In this document: positions 4,044 to 40,609 of the stretch, in pieces
How positions within the stretch are numbered: position 1 is the first letter of the stretch
How the letters are laid out: the number at the start of each line of letters is the position of its first letter
Source of the DNA: an uncultured Clostridia bacterium
Lineage (GTDB): Bacteria; Bacillota; Clostridia; Oscillospirales; Acutalibacteraceae
DNA length: 40,609 nucleotides
Reading direction: 5' to 3'
Assembly: GCA_947630835.1 (NCBI GenBank)
Contig: CANRIZ010000022.1
Location: 1-40,609, forward strand
Notes under the pieces: model-generated
The model's database searches: none
Told to the model about the DNA's origin: nothing
What the model saw: the letters and a program-made list of their open reading frames with translations, nothing else
Translations under genes and position numbers: made by a program

Positions 4044-6836
4044 ATGCAAAAAATTACTAAGCAGAAGTCGGCTGTTACCCGTCGAAAAATTTTGTCATTG
4101 TTTTTGTCATTGGCGATGATATTGACGGCTCTGCCCTTGGCAGGGGTTACTGCGTTTGCAGCGACAAGCGGAGATTTTGAGTATACTATACTCGAAGACG
4201 GCTCAGCGGAAATTACGGATTATACCGGTAGTGCGGAAACGCTTGAAATTCCCTCAAAGCTTGACGGATATACTGTTACAAGCATAGGATATGAGGCATT
4301 TGCATATTGCGACTTAACAAGCGTAACGATACCGGAAAGTGTTACAAGCATAGGCAGAAGTGCATTTTGGGATTGCAACAGATTAACAAGCATAACAATA
4401 GGTAATGGCGTTACAAGCATAGGTAATGAAGCATTTAAATATTGCTACAGCTTGATAAGCATAACAATCCCCGACAGCGTTACAAGCTTGGGTTGGTATG
4501 CATTTGAATATTGCGACAGCTTAACAAACGTAACGATGGGCAACGGCGTAACAAGCATAGGCGGGTCCGCGTTTGCAAATTGCGACAGCTTAACAAACGT
4601 AACAATACCCAACAGCGTTACAAACATAGACGAGTATGCATTTAGCAATTGTAAAAGCTTAACAAGCATAACAATACCCAATAGCGTAACAAGCATAGGT
4701 AAGAGAGCATTTGCATATTGCGACAGCTTAACGGAAATAAAGGTTGACGTAAACAATAAAAACTATACTTCACAGGACGGAGTATTATTTGATAAAAATA
4801 TAACAGAAATTATACAATATCCTATAGGAAACGAAAGAACATCATATGATATTCCAAACAGTGTTACAAGCATAGTTGAGTATGCATTTGATTATTGCAA
4901 TTTAACAAGTATAACAATACCCGACAGTGTTACAAGCATAGGCGAGGGCGCATTTTGGTATTGCGACAGTTTGACAAGCATAACCATACCCGACAGCGTT
5001 ACAAGCATAGGTGAGGACGCATTTTATAGTTGCGAAATGTTAACGGAAATAAGGGTTGATACAAACAATAAAAACTATTCTTCACAGGACGGAGTATTAT
5101 TTAATAAGAATAAGACAGAGCTTATACAATATCCTATAGGAAACGAAAGAACATCATATGATATTCCCAAAAGTGTTACAAGTATAGGTGATTGGGCATT
5201 TCATTCTTGCGAAAACTTAACAAGCGTAACAATACCAAACAGCGTCACAAGCATAGGCGAGTATGCGTTTTCTGATACCGGATATTCCAATAACCCGTCA
5301 AATTGGGAAAACGGTGTTCTCTATATAGATAACTGTTTAATAGAAGCAGAGAACGATGAAATCCCTGAAAATTATACAATAAATAATGGAACAAGAGTTA
5401 TTGCGGACGAAGCATTTGGCTGGTGCGTCAGCTTAATAAGCATAACAATCCCCGACAGCGTTACAAGCATAGGTGAGGACGCATTTCATAGTTGCGTCAG
5501 CTTAATAAGCATAACAATCCCCGACAGCGTTACAAGCATAGGTGAGGACGCATTTCATAGTTGCGTCAGCTTAATAAGCATAACAATCCCCGACAGCGTT
5601 ACAAGTATAGGTAATGGTGCATTTTGGGATTGCGAAAACTTAACAAGTGTAACAATCGGTGACAGCGTTACAAGCATAGGCAATTATGCATTTGAAAAAT
5701 GCAACAGCTTAACAAGCATAACAATACCCGACAGTGTTACAAGTATAGGCGAAAGGGCATTTACCGGCACAGGATATTATAATAACGCTTCAAACTGGAA
5801 AAACGGAGTGCTTTATATAGACAACTGTTTAATAGAAGCAAATAGCTATGAAATCCCTCAAAATTATACAATTAATGAGGAAACAAGAGTTATTGCAGGG
5901 GGTGCATTTGAATTTTGCAGCAGCTTAACCGATATTTATATATTAAACAAGAATTGTAATATTGTTTTACCGGAATATCCGGAATATAGCAATACAATAC
6001 CTACTGAAACCACAATCCACGGTTATGCAGGTTCAACCGCCGAAAGCTATGCAAAGGAACACGGCAATAAGTTTGATATGATATGCGATCATTCAAATAT
6101 GAAAAAGGTTGAAGCAAAGGCGGCTACCTGCACCGAGGACGGCAATATTGAATACTACCATTGCTCCGATTGCAACAAGAATTTCAAGGACATAAACGGC
6201 AACGAAGAAGTTACCGATGTTGTTGTTAAGGCAACAGGTCACAATATGGCACAAGTAGCCGCAAAGGCGGCTACCTGCACCGAAGACGGCAATATTGAAT
6301 ACTACCATTGCCCGGACTGCAACAAGAACTTTAAGGACAAAGACGGCAAGGAAGAGGTTGCAGACGTTGTAGTTAAGGCAACAGGTCACAATATGGCACA
6401 AGTAGCCGCAAAGGCGGCTACCTGCACCGAGGACGGCAATATTGAATACTATCATTGCCCTGACTGCAACAAGAACTTCAAGGATATAAACGGCAACGAA
6501 GAAGTTACCGATGTTGTTGTAAAAGCAACGGGACACAAATATGAGGACGGCGTATGCACCGTTTGCGGTGAGAAAGAACCTGTTAATCCGAGTGACCCGA
6601 CAAACCCCGATTCTCCCAAACCGAGCGGCGAAGTAAGCGGCGACGGCAAGTTATCAACCGTAGACGCTAAATGGATTTTGCAAAACATAGCAAAGTCAAG
6701 GGATTTCAGCGACGAGCAATTCAGAGCCGCCGACCTCAACGGCGACGGGAAATTGTCCGTAGTAGACGTTAAATGGGTACTCCAGATAGTTGCCGGTATG
6801 CGTGACGCAGAAACATTGGAGTTAATAACCAAATAA
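4044..6836 (+). CDS. secreted BspA-like leucine-rich-repeat protein with C-terminal dockerin
   Basis: A 930-aa exported protein. Residues 1-40 are a signal peptide (KRR-type charged start, hydrophobic LFLSLAMILTALPLAG, cleavage near AFA-A). Residues about 45-660 are some twenty 23-residue LRR_5 (BspA/TpLRR) repeats of the form LTSITIPDSVTSIGxxAFxxC, interrupted by longer insertions starting with NGVLYIDNCLIEA. Residues 691-837 are three near-identical 49-residue repeats with four Cys each (CTEDG...YYHC..C). Residues about 861-922 form a type I dockerin with two calcium loops (SGDGKLSTVDAKWIL and NGDGKLSVVDVKWVL). A dockerin docks proteins onto cohesin scaffolds, so the protein is probably displayed on a cellulosome-like complex as an adhesin or binder; BspA repeats have no enzymatic role. 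The ribosome site is AGAGGA, 6 nt before ATG. Single-gene unit. Confidence 0.9.
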   Translation: MQKITKQKSAVTRRKILSLFLSLAMILTALPLAGVTAFAATSGDFEYTILEDGSAEITDYTGSAETLEIPSKLDGYTVTSIGYEAFAYCDLTSVTIPESVTSIGRSAFWDCNRLTSITIGNGVTSIGNEAFKYCYSLISITIPDSVTSLGWYAFEYCDSLTNVTMGNGVTSIGGSAFANCDSLTNVTIPNSVTNIDEYAFSNCKSLTSITIPNSVTSIGKRAFAYCDSLTEIKVDVNNKNYTSQDGVLFDKNITEIIQYPIGNERTSYDIPNSVTSIVEYAFDYCNLTSITIPDSVTSIGEGAFWYCDSLTSITIPDSVTSIGEDAFYSCEMLTEIRVDTNNKNYSSQDGVLFNKNKTELIQYPIGNERTSYDIPKSVTSIGDWAFHSCENLTSVTIPNSVTSIGEYAFSDTGYSNNPSNWENGVLYIDNCLIEAENDEIPENYTINNGTRVIADEAFGWCVSLISITIPDSVTSIGEDAFHSCVSLISITIPDSVTSIGEDAFHSCVSLISITIPDSVTSIGNGAFWDCENLTSVTIGDSVTSIGNYAFEKCNSLTSITIPDSVTSIGERAFTGTGYYNNASNWKNGVLYIDNCLIEANSYEIPQNYTINEETRVIAGGAFEFCSSLTDIYILNKNCNIVLPEYPEYSNTIPTETTIHGYAGSTAESYAKEHGNKFDMICDHSNMKKVEAKAATCTEDGNIEYYHCSDCNKNFKDINGNEEVTDVVVKATGHNMAQVAAKAATCTEDGNIEYYHCPDCNKNFKDKDGKEEVADVVVKATGHNMAQVAAKAATCTEDGNIEYYHCPDCNKNFKDINGNEEVTDVVVKATGHKYEDGVCTVCGEKEPVNPSDPTNPDSPKPSGEVSGDGKLSTVDAKWILQNIAKSRDFSDEQFRAADLNGDGKLSVVDVKWVLQIVAGMRDAETLELITK
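5433..5605 (+). repeat. exact 69-bp tandem repeat inside the LRR region
   Basis: Units 5433-5501 and 5502-5570 are identical over 69 bases (23 codons, one LRR), and a third copy starting at 5571 is the same for about 35 bases before diverging. Exact identity at DNA level implies recent duplication and likely copy-number variation by slippage or recombination, always in frame. Confidence 0.9.
6114..6554 (+). repeat. three 147-bp tandem units encoding the Cys-containing repeats
   Basis: Units begin at 6114, 6261 and 6408, each 147 bases (49 codons), starting GCAAAGGCGGCTACCTG. The DNA is almost identical between units, again pointing to recent expansion. Confidence 0.9.
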
Positions 6837-36270: not shown

Positions 36271-37191
36271 TTATGTGATTTGCAAGTATTTTTTAATTTC
36301 CTCTATATACTTCTGCCCGATATTGCTCAGCGAACTGTTTTTTCTTGTAAGGTATCCGATCTCCATCACGCTGTTTTCCGGGGCGGAATCGGCTTCAAAC
36401 GGCACGGCAATATAATCGTCGCCGTTGAGTTCTTCGCAGATAATACCGGAGCAAAGTGTATATCCGTTCAGACCGATCATCAGATTCAGCATCGTTGCTC
36501 GGTCGTTTGCCTTAATGGTGCGCAGATACTCGCCGGTGCTCAGAATTTCCTCCGCAAAATAGAAAGAGCTTGTGTCCCCCTGCTCAAAGGAAAGGCAGGG
36601 GTAATCCGCGAGCTCGTCAAACCGAATGGATCTCTTTTTTGCAAGCGGATGGCCCGACCATAAATAAACATAAGCGTTGCAGTTAATCAAAGGATGAAAT
36701 TCAAGCTCCGCGCTGCGCAAAAGCTTACTTACCGCAGCACGGTTAAAATCACTGAGATACAGAATCCCGATCTCGCTTTTCATCGACGCGACGTCGCCAA
36801 TCACATCCTTCGTCTTGGTTTCACGAATGGCGAATTCGTAGCGGGCGGTGTCAAATGACTTTACCAACTCCACAAACGCCTTCACTGCAAAGGAGTAGTG
36901 CTGCGTGGAGACGCCGAATTTCTTTTTCAAGGCTTTCGGATTCGCATATTTCTCAATCAGATCTTCATATTGACTGTAAATCTGCTTTGCATATTGCAAG
37001 AACTCGGCTCCGTCCGCTGTCAGCGTAACACCCCGGCCACCGCGATTAAAAATCGTAATCCCAAGCTCTCTTTCAAGCTCCTGCATCGAGTTGGTGAGAG
37101 AAGGCTGTGCGATATATAAAATTTCGGCAGCTTTATTTAATGAGCCGCTTTCCGCAATTGTAATGGCGTAATGGATTTGTTGCAGTGTCAT
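36271..37191 (-). CDS. LysR-family transcriptional regulator
   Basis: A 306-aa regulator. The N-terminal winged helix-turn-helix is clear: MTLQQIHYAITIAESGSLNK followed by AAEILYIAQPSLTNSMQELE and GGRGVTLTADGAEFL. The C-terminal about 210 residues form the periplasmic-binding-like effector domain. ATG at 37191 matches the family start; an in-frame ATG lies 6 codons earlier at 37209. Located just upstream of metY and divergent from the Rrf2 gene, it is a good candidate for control of the sulfur genes, perhaps sensing O-acetylserine or O-acetylhomoserine; the ligand is inference. Confidence 0.9.
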   Translation of the reverse strand: MTLQQIHYAITIAESGSLNKAAEILYIAQPSLTNSMQELERELGITIFNRGGRGVTLTADGAEFLQYAKQIYSQYEDLIEKYANPKALKKKFGVSTQHYSFAVKAFVELVKSFDTARYEFAIRETKTKDVIGDVASMKSEIGILYLSDFNRAAVSKLLRSAELEFHPLINCNAYVYLWSGHPLAKKRSIRFDELADYPCLSFEQGDTSSFYFAEEILSTGEYLRTIKANDRATMLNLMIGLNGYTLCSGIICEELNGDDYIAVPFEADSAPENSVMEIGYLTRKNSSLSNIGQKYIEEIKKYLQIT

Positions 37192-37223
37192 AGCAGATTC
37201 TCTTTTCATTTCTTACTTTACTT

Positions 37224-37366: not shown

Positions 37367-37804
37367 ATGAAAATATCAACAAAAGGCCGTTATGCGCTTC
37401 GGATGCTTCTTGATCTGGCTGCGCATCGGGAAGAAGGATATATCGCCTTAAAAGACATTGCCGAGCGTCAGGACATTTCAAAGAAATATCTGGAACAGAT
37501 TGTACCGATCTTAAACAGATCCGACCTGCTGCGCACAAATCGCGGAAACCAAGGCGGATATATGCTTGTGAAAGATCCCAGCCGGTATACGGTAGGCGAG
37601 ATCCTGCGGTTGACGGAGGGAGATCTTGCCCCGGTAGCGTGTGTCGGAAAAAATCCCGAAGAATGCAAACGCAGCGCCGAATGCCCGACACTTCCCGTGT
37701 GGCAGGGATTCTACAAGGTGATAAACGAATATTTTGACGGAATTACCTTACAGGATATTCTCGACCAGCAAAATGCACGAGACATTGACAATTATGTGAT
37801 TTGA
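37367..37804 (+). CDS. Rrf2-family transcriptional regulator (IscR/CymR-like)
   Basis: A 145-aa winged-helix regulator. N-terminal STKGRYALRMLLDLA, KDIAERQDISKKYLEQI and GGYMLVKDPS are standard Rrf2 motifs. The C-terminal half has three Cys in CVGKNPEECKRSAECPTLPV (C-x7-C-x5-C), the IscR-like pattern able to hold an Fe-S cluster, unlike the CymR of Bacillus, which works with CysK and lacks it. The only plus-strand gene of the sulfur region, with AAGGAG 10 nt before ATG. A role as redox or cysteine-linked regulator of the adjacent genes is inferred from location. Confidence 0.9.
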   Translation: MKISTKGRYALRMLLDLAAHREEGYIALKDIAERQDISKKYLEQIVPILNRSDLLRTNRGNQGGYMLVKDPSRYTVGEILRLTEGDLAPVACVGKNPEECKRSAECPTLPVWQGFYKVINEYFDGITLQDILDQQNARDIDNYVI

Positions 37805-37844
37805 AAAAGCAGCAGCCGATGATGAAAATCGACTGCTGCTTTTT
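37804..37844. terminator. bidirectional terminator between Rrf2 and mccA
   Basis: AAAAAGCAGCAG (37804-37815) and CTGCTGCTTTTT (37833-37844) form a 12-bp stem extended by CGAT/ATCG, with A and T runs on both sides. It serves the two convergent genes and overlaps the stop codons of both. Confidence 0.9.
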
Positions 37845-38755
37845 CACGCATAAAGGTGTTTGCTGAAATAGCGATCACCGCGATCCGGCAGGATGATAAC
37901 AATATTGCCTGCCCCTCCGTCATCAATCAATTTTTTTGCGGCAGCCAGTGACGCGCCGGAAGAGGAACCGGCGAAAATCCCTTCTTTTGTCGCGAGTTCC
38001 CTTGCCCCTTCAAGTGCTTCTTCATCGTTTATTTTTATGACCGCGTCCACAAGGGACATATCCATGGTAGCGGCAATGAAGTCATTTCCGATTCCCTCGA
38101 TATTGTAATCACTATGTTCTCCGCCACCCATCGTTGAGCCAATCGGATCGGCAAGGATTCCTTTGATATTCGGGTTCTGTTCTTTCAGGTACCGCATAAC
38201 ACCGGAATATGTACCGCCGCTGCCTGCTCCTGCTACCAAATAATCAATATTTCCATCCATATCCGAATAAATCTCCGGTCCGGTCGTTTCATAATGAGCG
38301 AGCGGATTGCTCGGATTTTCAAATTGTTTCAGAGAAACTGCACCCGGGATCAATTCACGCAGTTCCTCTGCTTTTTTTGCCGCACCGAGCATTCCGTCTG
38401 CTCTCGGAGTATTGATAATCTGCGCACCGAGAGCGCGCATCAGTATTTGTTTTTCTTCAGAGAATTTTTCCGGCACAACAAAAATCACTTTATAGCCGCG
38501 ATTTAGTGCCGCAAAGGCAATTCCGAGGCCGGTGTTTCCTGCTGTACCCTCGACAATTGTTCCACCCGGTTTTATTCGGCCTTTCTTTTCTGCGTCGGCA
38601 ATCATGTATTGTCCGATTCTGTCTTTTACGCTTCCGGCCGGATTATATAGTTCCAGCTTTGCGAATAGCCGGACTTTGTCCGAAAGTCCGAGATGGCTGA
38701 GCTTGACAATGGGTGTGTTTCCCACCAATTCCTGCATGGAAGAGTAAAGCGCCAT
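37844..38755 (-). CDS. mccA: O-acetylserine-dependent cystathionine beta-synthase / cysteine synthase-family protein
   Basis: A 303-aa PLP enzyme of the CysK/CBS fold. Motifs: LVGNTPIVKLS, YNPAGSVKDRIGQYMI with the PLP lysine, VEGTAGNTGLGIAFAALNRG, GAGSGGTYSGVMRYL and GIFAGSSSGASLAAA. The EGTAGNTG loop (instead of EPTSGNTG of CysK) and its place directly after a cystathionine lyase-like gene suggest MccA, which joins homocysteine to O-acetylserine in reverse transsulfuration; plain cysteine synthase is the alternative. Start ATG at 38755 lies 2 bases after the mccB stop. Confidence 0.8.
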   Translation of the reverse strand: MALYSSMQELVGNTPIVKLSHLGLSDKVRLFAKLELYNPAGSVKDRIGQYMIADAEKKGRIKPGGTIVEGTAGNTGLGIAFAALNRGYKVIFVVPEKFSEEKQILMRALGAQIINTPRADGMLGAAKKAEELRELIPGAVSLKQFENPSNPLAHYETTGPEIYSDMDGNIDYLVAGAGSGGTYSGVMRYLKEQNPNIKGILADPIGSTMGGGEHSDYNIEGIGNDFIAATMDMSLVDAVIKINDEEALEGARELATKEGIFAGSSSGASLAAAKKLIDDGGAGNIVIILPDRGDRYFSKHLYA

Positions 38756-38757
38756 AA

Positions 38758-39915
38758 TCACATCTCACTTTCCGCTATTGCCTGATCCAGATCAAAAAGC
38801 AAATCGTCAATACTTTCAATTCCGACGGAAAGCCGAATAAGGCCGTCCGTAATTCCAACTTTTTGCCTTATTTCGTAGGGAATAGAAGCGTGGGTCATAC
38901 TCGCCGGATGGCAGACAAGGCTTTCGACGCCGCCAAGGCTTTCCGCAAGAGCAATCAGCCGGAGGGAACTGAAAAATTTTGCAATATTATAATTTTCGTA
39001 TAATTCAAAGGAAATCATTGCGCCGCCGTTTTTTGCCTGTCTGCGATTGATCTCATATCCCTGCGCATCCGGCAGTCCCGGATAATAGACCTGCTTTACT
39101 GCCCTGTGAAGTTTCAGGTATTCCGCCGCCTTTTCCGCATTGGCAACATGACGGTCAAGGCGAACTCCCAAGGTCTTTATACCTCGTATCAGCAAAAAAG
39201 AGTCAAAGGGAGCAAGCACGCCTCCGGTAGAATTCTGAATAAAAGCGATTCTTTCCGCGAGCGCCTCGTCATTCACAACAACAAGACCGGCCACCAAATC
39301 ACTGTGCCCTCCGAGATATTTTGTTGCACTGTGTATGACGATATCTGCACCGAGTTCAATCGGGCGCTGAAGATAAGGTGTCATAAAAGTATTGTCCACA
39401 ACAGAAAGAATACCATGCTTTTTTGCAATCTCCGACACACCGGATAAGTCTGTCACGGTAAGCAGAGGATTTGCGGGGCTTTCCACAAGAATTGCCTTGA
39501 CATCCGGTGTGATTTTCGAGTCAAGCCCGGCAAGGTCAGTCGTATCTTCGATCGTGTAGTTTATACCGAAATTCTTAAACACTTTATCCAGAACACGGAA
39601 AGTACCGCCGTAAACATTGCTCGAAATAATGATCTTATCTCCGCTTTCAAAAAGGCTCAGCACCGCTGTGATCGCCGCCATGCCGGATGCAAATGCAAAT
39701 CCGGCTTTTCCGCATTCAAGCTCTGCAATCAGCGCTTCAAGCGCCGCCCTTGTGGGATTTCCCGTGCGCGAATATTCCCATCCTTTATGCTTTCCGAGTT
39801 CGGGCTGTTCGTAGGTCGAAGTTTGATAAATCGGCACATTGACGGCGCCCGTATGCTCATCTCCGTATATTCCACCATGAATAAGAGCTGATTCTATATT
39901 TTTATATTTTGACAT
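38758..39915 (-). CDS. mccB: cystathionine gamma-lyase/gamma-synthase-family enzyme
   Basis: A 385-aa PLP enzyme of the Cys/Met metabolism family. Motifs: ALIHGGIYGDEHTGAVNVPI, YSRTGNPTRAALEALIAELE, VVDNTFMTPYLQRPIELGAD, IVIHSATKYLGGHSDLVAG with the PLP lysine and ESLVCHPASMTHASI. The about 380-aa length fits MccB/MetB/MetC rather than the longer OAH sulfhydrylase. Paired with the MccA-like gene, it likely cleaves cystathionine to cysteine. AGGAGG is 9 nt before ATG. It is preceded by a terminator and a leader ORF with four successive Cys codons. Confidence 0.85.
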   Translation of the reverse strand: MSKYKNIESALIHGGIYGDEHTGAVNVPIYQTSTYEQPELGKHKGWEYSRTGNPTRAALEALIAELECGKAGFAFASGMAAITAVLSLFESGDKIIISSNVYGGTFRVLDKVFKNFGINYTIEDTTDLAGLDSKITPDVKAILVESPANPLLTVTDLSGVSEIAKKHGILSVVDNTFMTPYLQRPIELGADIVIHSATKYLGGHSDLVAGLVVVNDEALAERIAFIQNSTGGVLAPFDSFLLIRGIKTLGVRLDRHVANAEKAAEYLKLHRAVKQVYYPGLPDAQGYEINRRQAKNGGAMISFELYENYNIAKFFSSLRLIALAESLGGVESLVCHPASMTHASIPYEIRQKVGITDGLIRLSVGIESIDDLLFDLDQAIAESEM

Positions 39916-39942
39916 CTTTGTTTCCTCCTAAATGTAAACAAT

Positions 39943-40005
39943 AAAACTCCGCCTGCATTTTCAAAATCCAAAATGAATCGGAATATTGAAAACAGGCGGA
40001 GTTTT
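39943..40005 (-). terminator. attenuator terminator before mccB
   Basis: AAAACTCCGCCTG (40005-39993) pairs with CAGGCGGAGTTTT (39955-39943) over 13 positions; an inner TTTTCAA/TTGAAAA helix extends it. It is followed on the minus strand by ATTGTTT, so the T tract is short. Its 5' arm CCGCCTGT (39999-39992) is complementary over 8 bases to ACAGGCGG (40055-40048), the last codons of the leader ORF. That gives an alternative antiterminator pairing. Confidence 0.8.
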
Positions 40006-40043
40006 GTTTATGAGCTTTTGATAGACTATCCAAAGAACAGTGG

Positions 40044-40169
40044 TCAGCCGCCTGTATGCTTTATCATACAGCAGCAACAATCGGATACGGCAAGGAAGCC
40101 GGAGAAACCGGACGCTTCTTCGGCTGCATCATTCACTGTATTCAAATTGATTCGTATTTGAATGTTCAT
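40044..40169 (-). CDS. leader peptide with four consecutive Cys codons upstream of mccBA
   Basis: A 41-codon ORF starting MNIQIRINLNTVNDAAEEAS with GAGGA 7 nt before ATG. Codons 31-34 (40079-40068) are TGT-TGC-TGC-TGT, a Cys tetrad, followed by only seven more codons and a TGA. The final codons (ACA-GGC-GGC) hold the sequence ACAGGCGG that can pair with the 5' arm of the terminator at 39943-40005. A ribosome stalled at the Cys codons would leave that sequence free (antitermination), while one that reaches the stop would cover it (termination). This is the classical layout of amino-acid attenuation with cysteine as the signal. Confidence 0.8.
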   Translation of the reverse strand: MNIQIRINLNTVNDAAEEASGFSGFLAVSDCCCCMIKHTGG

Positions 40170-40205
40170 GATGATTCCTCGCATAAGTCTATGATTTGAA
40201 AATGG

Positions 40206-40609
40206 TCAGTCTGCAAACATCGGGGTGGAGAGATACCGTTCGCCGGTGTCGGGCAGCAAGGCGACAATGATCTTTCCTTTATTCTCCGGGCGTTTTGCAA
40301 GTTCGGTTGCAGCAAAGACGGCCGCGCCCGAAGAAATGCCAACCAGCAGACCTTCCTTCCGTGCCAAGGTGCGTCCTGTTTCAAAGGCGTCCTCATTCTC
40401 CACGGTAATGATCTCATCGTAAACGGCTGTATTCAGCGTATCCGGCACAAAACCGGCGCCGATGCCTTGAATCTTATGCGGTCCTGCCGTACCTTTTGAA
40501 AGGACGGGCGAGCCGGCCGGTTCCACGGCAACGACTTTCACATTCGGATTTTTGCTCTTGAGATATTCACCGACACCCGTCACCGTTCCGCCGGTACCGA
40601 CGCCCGCGA
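40206..40609 (-). CDS. cysK: cysteine synthase A, C-terminal part (runs off the window)
   Basis: Only the last about 133 codons are present; the 5' end is beyond the window edge. [20 protein letters not shown] at the start is the phosphate-binding Gly loop, [12 protein letters not shown] and [20 protein letters not shown] follow, and [14 protein letters not shown] closes the protein as in O-acetylserine sulfhydrylase CysK. It makes cysteine from O-acetylserine and sulfide. Its stop lies only 36 bases before the leader ORF at 40169, with no separate terminator, so the leader and mccBA may be read from the cysK transcript; a weak TTGCAG-17-CATAGA promoter overlapping its end is possible. Confidence 0.92.

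Follow-up and report, generated by a model that had tools for sequence, protein, structure and literature searches.

The window analysed here is a 40,609-nt stretch of DNA from an uncultured Clostridia bacterium of the Acutalibacteraceae, and the locus of interest lies on its minus strand. In the order in which they would be transcribed, its features are the 3' part of cysK (40206..40607, recognised by model match and running off the window), a 36-nt gap between the cysK stop codon and the ATG of a leader ORF (40044..40169), a stem-loop, mccB and mccA. The mccB-type gene (38758..39915) encodes a PLP enzyme whose best NCBIfam model, bifunctional cystathionine gamma-lyase/homocysteine desulfhydrase, scored 567 bits, below the cut-off of 594; the mccA-type gene (37844..38761) belongs to the cysteine synthase/cystathionine beta-synthase family, again with models matching below cut-off. 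Together the two products would be expected to convert homocysteine to cysteine. Scanning 39880-40609 gave no sigma-70-like promoter, so transcription may start at a cysK promoter beyond the window. An Rrf2-family regulator gene (37367-37804, plus strand), which the CymR and IscR models match below their cut-offs, adjoins mccBA, and a LysR-type regulator gene (36271-37209, minus strand) lies nearby; a second layer of control is therefore possible. Elsewhere in the window, 4044-6836 (plus strand) encodes a 930-aa repeat protein, the C-terminal end of which we take to resemble a dockerin domain.

The leader ORF runs for 41 codons from the ATG at 40169 to a TGA stop at 40046-40044 and encodes the peptide MNIQIRINLNTVNDAAEEASGFSGFLAVSDCCCCMIKHTGG; a second in-frame ATG lies upstream at 40184. 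A Shine-Dalgarno-like GAGGA (40176..40180) precedes the leader ATG by 6 nt, and the CGAGGA at this site is present unchanged in a related locus, L168. A translated ORF with its own ribosome site is thus predicted, and homologous leaders in relatives agree with this. Four consecutive Cys codons, TGT TGC TGC TGT, occupy 40068..40079 and form the proposed regulatory run, made up of codons for the product of the pathway; Cys enrichment is likewise seen in relatives. As the last codons read CAT ACA GGC GGC TGA, the segment ACAGGCGG (40055-40048) falls inside the end of the ORF, finishing 1 nt short of the stop codon. The hidden ORF with its four Cys codons, the ribosome site, and the complementarity between ACAGGCGG in the last codons and the 5' arm of a terminator had all been proposed in an initial annotation of this DNA, and we found each of them at the positions given there.

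We also asked how often such a run occurs by searching the 2.1-Mb genome for four successive TGY codons; there were 5 occurrences, against 15 for the pattern read backwards, and inspection of the four other sites by eye revealed nothing leader-like. One of these four (L111; G000 contig 2, 111788-111799) lies between a tRNA-Cys gene and a gene for a 297-aa membrane protein that presumably resembles EamA-type transporters; its frame ends in CCCC followed by a stop and has no usual start codon.

Folding and alignment divide the leader RNA into four segments. Segment 1 is the Cys-codon stretch (40065..40075), and segment 2 (40047..40058), with ACAGGCGG as its core, can pair with either segment 1 or segment 3. 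Segment 3 (39986..40005; core CCGCCTGT at 39999-39992) is the 5' arm of the terminator, and segment 4 (39943..39956; GCAGGCGGAGTTTT) is its 3' arm, closing the stem-loop as GCAGGCGG, with an imperfect U tract (TTTTATTG) behind it. The terminator itself (40005-39943) is present where it had been annotated, with a predicted free energy of -32.2 kcal/mol, and was not reported by a simple consensus terminator scanner limited to loops of 3-8 nt. The 271-nt leader folds far more stably than its shuffles (z -6.88). A hairpin missing from the initial annotation forms between the Cys codons (40075-40065) and 40058-40047; because the Cys codons can thereby pair with ACAGGCGG, the anatomy of a trp-type attenuator is complete, with segments 1, 2 and 3 competing for partners and the 1:2, 2:3 and 3:4 pairings predicted to be mutually exclusive.

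The energies of these pairings are unequal, as the terminator (-32.2 kcal/mol) far outweighs the antiterminator (-16.7 kcal/mol). When a ribosome was placed in silico at the first or fourth Cys codon, the antiterminator was freed (about -16.6), while the full-length fold was still the terminator; this full-length folding with a placed ribosome was carried out on 22 of 43 leaders, chosen by hand. Read-through must therefore be kinetic, with the choice made before segment 4 is transcribed. Attenuators usually do decide before their last segment is transcribed.

We then examined the upstream regions of mccB relatives. Loci were fetched for the best 80 of 588 relatives, many of them titled as rumen or gut bins, and 81 regions (77 of the 80 loci, the window and L146-L148) were scored for ORFs of 6-65 codons with at least three Cys in six codons within 350 nt upstream of the first gene. 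Three loci (L014, L079, L080) were left out for too little upstream sequence, as were the distant methyltransferase loci L149-L151, in which no leader was seen on inspection. Qualifying ORFs were found on the sense strand of 46 of the 81 regions (a count that includes the weak matches L020, L034, L047 and L077), on the antisense strand of 2 of 81, and in 206 of 4050 shuffles; since the loci are related, these counts do not represent independent events. Raising the threshold to at least four Cys in seven codons left 38 of 81 sense and 0 of 81 antisense regions, and at this threshold none of the eight other two-codon amino acids gave more than 1 on the sense strand, with antisense counts of at most 8 (Gln); amino acids with more codons reached 17 (Leu).

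The genes behind the leaders belong, by model matches, to sulfur amino acid families, a constancy that partly reflects how the loci were fetched, and the order cysK then leader is common to L129, L130, L146-L148 and L168. In many relatives the operon is headed by a SAM-dependent methyltransferase gene (TIGR00027, LCM family), which in our reading corresponds to the ubiG of the Clostridium operon, and it is this gene that the leader precedes. Leaders were found in 33 of 37 methyltransferase-first regions and in 13 of 44 mccB-first regions. The expectation in the initial annotation that homologous loci would carry the ORF thus holds for 46 of the 81 regions and fails at the closest mccB relative, L001, and across 31 of the 44 mccB-first regions. 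Three loci scored as mccB-first and leaderless (L050, L053, L054) have a leader about 1 kb upstream; in L002 the Cys run is cut by the contig end, and L013 and L043 miss the threshold because their Cys codons are split, the frame in L013 also running into the end of the region.

The leaders fall into groups, which we drew by eye after the sequences had been seen. Window-type leaders (L002-L008, L010-L013, L015, L016, L022, L146, L147, L168) share CCCMCC..DTGG-like ends, with L021 (titled Treponema), L045 and L033 (titled Alphaproteobacteria) as looser members. Fibrobacter-type leaders (L025, L027-L030, L032, L044, L070, of which L027 is titled Clostridiales) include the 14-aa peptide MNQKMMNMCCCCWS. 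A Ruminococcus flavefaciens type, hereafter B, comprises L040, L041, L046, L049-L051, L054-L056, L058, L059 and L065; six of these (L041, L046, L051, L055, L058, L065) have a second Cys pair after the first run, in a kept YAQRCC stretch (DNA TATGCTCAGCGATGTTG). Organism titles are given as deposited, and most denote metagenome bins; isolates carrying leaders are R. bromii YE282 (L003), R. flavefaciens ND2009 (L046), and Succinivibrio dextrinosolvens ACV-10 and DSM 3072 (L074, L078). The two Succinivibrio leaders lie about 980-1110 nt before mccB and have CCCCCC or CCNCCC as their final residues; they may represent a Rho-dependent or translational version of leader control. One genome, G117, has two methyltransferase loci (L124 and L144, on contigs 27 and 44), each with its own poly-Cys leader.

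The predicted RNA pairings could also be compared between leaders. An intrinsic terminator follows the Cys run, ahead of the genes, in 41 of 47 scored leaders, that of the window having the imperfect U tract described above; none was found behind the scored runs of L020, L046, L047, L074, L077 and L078. For L046 the scoring had taken the second Cys pair, and another terminator search did find a terminator there. For 24 of 43 leaders, the post-Cys stretch paired with the terminator 5' arm (2:3) more strongly than its shuffles did (p < 0.05), namely 16 of 19 of the window type, 4 of 7 of the Fibrobacter type and 1 of 10 of type B, with the remainder among seven ungrouped leaders (L015, L034, L052, L053, L066, L070, L148); L017, in which the gap is too short, L046 and L056 were left out of this test. 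Of 133 further terminators in these loci, taken as a control, only 7 paired upstream at this level. The 1:2 hairpin exceeded shuffles (p < 0.05) in 12 of 17 leaders, in all 17 of which segment 2 follows the first Cys codon at a distance of 18-30 nt.

With the RNA freed from 12 nt beyond the first Cys codon onward, upstream pairing took up 7 nt or more of arm 3 in 40 of 43 leaders (window type 19/19, Fibrobacter type 7/7, type B 9/10); such pairing is common by itself, as it also occurred in 74 of 133 control terminators. Keeping only those cases in which this fold also equalled or exceeded the terminator in strength left 29 of 43 leaders versus 34 of 133 controls. The terminator greatly outweighs the upstream-paired fold in the window and in L022.

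On an alignment of 16 window-type leaders, RNAalifold chose the 1:2 and 3:4 helices, with 96.2% of cells paired and a covariation score above that of all 500 shuffles; three pairs showed double changes, a number reached by 8 of 500 shuffles. When the 9-base arms of 16 leaders were joined, changes on both sides were seen in three terminator pairs and two antiterminator pairs (L003, with an insertion, L045, with a bulge, and L015 and L016, whose arms equal those of L005, were left out). Individual loci show concerted change in the arms: ACAGACGG is accompanied by CCGTCTGT in L006 and GCAGACGG by CCGTCTGC in L033, and in L003 each of the three arms contains an identical inserted base. Concerted changes of the kind anticipated in the initial annotation are present in L006, L033 and L003, whereas the antiterminator alone shows little on the full alignment, where a single 2:3 pair has a double change, a weak signal reached by 150 of 500 shuffles. 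Its further suggestion, that the Cys run and paired segments would be kept while much of the remaining peptide drifts, agrees with what we observed in window-type leaders.

The immediate history of the locus can be read from its closest relatives. The nearest mccB, in L001 (89%), follows cysK and a terminator-like hairpin with no leader, which shows that such a locus can do without one. Searching with a model built from the leaders returned one new locus, G517 (E 3.1e-11), with a leader between cysK and a methyltransferase gene; L147 and L156 carry the same leader, so that G517 is the only new match, and nine further matches (E 7e-5 to 1e-3) were near no mcc, cysK or methyltransferase gene. 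The G517 cysK is 94% identical to the part of cysK in the window. Its leader is homologous to that of the window, with CRCC for CCCC and with segments 2 and 3 identical; the ORF is free of indels between the two, while indels occur in the spacer between segments 2 and 3. What follows the G517 leader is a methyltransferase gene, a shorter one of 251 aa, and not mccB, and no mccB-like gene was found in the 9.5 kb read. The window therefore seems to have lost the methyltransferase gene between leader and mccB. In L168 (2014-3923) a short methyltransferase gene lies behind the leader and is followed by opposite-strand genes, one of which presumably resembles a DNA adenine methylase; they are perhaps the edge of a prophage. 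Among 39 genomes of the window's genus, a close mccB was found only in the window's own, the next best being 39% identical (G012), which makes horizontal gain likely.

The anatomy established by sequence and computation, a recurrent ORF with Cys codons and three competing pairings placed ahead of the genes, leads us to regard it as highly probable that the element attenuates transcription through a translating ribosome, in the manner of the trp and his leaders, with charged tRNA-Cys as its signal. It would, very probably, switch on cysteine-making genes when charged cysteine tRNA is short. In that state a ribosome would stall on the Cys codons and mask segment 1, so that segment 2 could pair with segment 3 while segment 4 was still to be transcribed, and RNA polymerase would continue into mccBA. 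With charged tRNA plentiful, the ribosome would reach the stop codon and cover segment 2, permitting the 3:4 terminator to form; were the ORF left untranslated, the Cys codons would pair with segment 2 and the terminator would form too. We infer from this arrangement that the ORF is translated, that ribosomes stall on it, that transcription terminates and that the outcome depends on cysteine.

Other readings of the same features must be weighed. One may postulate that the nascent Cys run itself senses thiol redox state, sulfide or a metal and stalls the ribosome, with no role for tRNA charging. Cys arrays would be chemically suited to this, and type B leaders keep their second Cys pair in a TYAQRCC-like stretch; starvation for the codon suffices, however, and the peptide context of the Cys run differs between groups, which renders this explanation very unlikely in our estimation. 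A little less credible again is the scenario in which the ORF serves to make its peptide, a small Cys-rich protein that binds metal or thiols, with the hairpin merely its terminator. Cys is indeed among the best-kept residues, and window-type peptides share more than Cys (an FSG.LA-like stretch and TGG), but the peptides of other groups share little else and shrink to 14 aa, the peptide drifts between the window and G517 while three of the four Cys are kept, and the TGG codons hold segment 2, the partner of the terminator arm. Finally, an ordinary terminator behind cysK combined with a chance ORF and chance complementarity is the least plausible of all and we reject it: L001 does have its terminator-like hairpin without a leader, and TGY x4 is found four more times in the genome, but against it stand the Cys-specific, strand-specific recurrence of the leader ahead of one set of genes across dozens of loci, and 2:3 pairing above that of control terminators.

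Attenuation by the leader ORF, our preferred reading, is best set against the systems already described for the same genes and the same amino acid. In the available portion of PMC2940859, Cys T-boxes are described as controlling ubiG-mccBA in C. acetobutylicum and the ubiG operon in C. perfringens. The window resembles the ubiG-mccBA case, as that portion presents it, in operon type, in the proposed signal of tRNA-Cys charging and in premature termination as output; it differs in that the T-box is an RNA that binds tRNA (PMC2940859), whereas the sensor here would be a ribosome on a peptide ORF. A Cys T-box in the window itself was considered and rejected, as RF00230 matched neither the window nor any of the 80 loci at gathering score. 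A permissive T-box search (E up to 0.05) of 8 loci without scored leaders likewise returned nothing, and the only match to any Rfam family at gathering score in the window and the 80 loci was a cobalamin riboswitch in L018, far from mccB. The window's genome, by comparison, holds 13 T-box model matches at E <= 0.001.

The trp and his operons are the classical leader-peptide attenuators. The window shares with them a short ORF with regulatory codons, competing hairpins, an intrinsic terminator and pathway genes behind, and differs in that cysteine would be sensed and other genes controlled; the likeness drawn here is one of anatomy. Within the Firmicutes, leader peptides replace T-boxes before hisS/hisZ, and His leaders occur in Bacilli, according to the part of PMC2965389 available to us; the Listeria ilv operon has a branched-chain leader, Rli60, in the accessible text of PMC5864092.

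Cysteine leaders have also been described elsewhere. As summarised in the available sections of PMC8632094, uORFC-8-2 is a Cys leader before cysS in Rhodobacterales; it shares with the window an intrinsic terminator and a leader ORF that contains Cys codons, and differs in having two Cys codons, in being alpha-proteobacterial and in preceding cysS only, whereas the leaders described here mostly have 3-6 Cys codons and precede mcc or methyltransferase operons, the window's being followed by an mccB-type gene. Cys leaders were predicted in mycobacteria and other Actinobacteria in the part of PMC1262725 at hand, and polycysteine short ORFs of mycobacteria are known to us through Canestrari 2020, as cited in excerpts of PMC13236596 and PMC9094748. 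The mycobacterial ORFs are similar in placing runs of Cys codons before cysteine genes (PMC1262725, same part); they are titled leaderless (Canestrari 2020, going by the title) and, in that part of PMC1262725, have no conserved terminator. The window's ORF, which begins 36 nt past cysK, has a Shine-Dalgarno-like site and may thus differ from them in its start, and it precedes a strong terminator. A search of the open literature, with subscription papers mostly outside it, found no Cys leaders for mcc operons, nor any in Firmicutes, Fibrobacter or Treponema/Spirochaetes, and the Cys leader before mcc operons is apparently a widespread addition to known leader-peptide attenuation.

On balance, and with less assurance than for the attenuator itself, we favour a broader scenario for this gut and rumen set, which by titles spans Ruminococcus and relatives, Fibrobacter, Treponema and Succinivibrio. 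Here Cys-codon attenuators would govern the methionine-to-cysteine operon in place of the Clostridium Cys T-box, having arisen more than once or diverged beyond recognition and travelling with the operon between lineages, and the window's leader would have come to lie directly before mccB through loss of the methyltransferase gene. If so, the leader would be a self-contained cysteine-responsive switch needing no protein regulator, used for poly-Cys reading in a genome otherwise rich in T-boxes; and one pathway would be read by a Cys T-box in Clostridium and by a ribosome on poly-Cys codons in other gut bacteria, so that nature would offer two different sensors of one signal, each set before the same operon.
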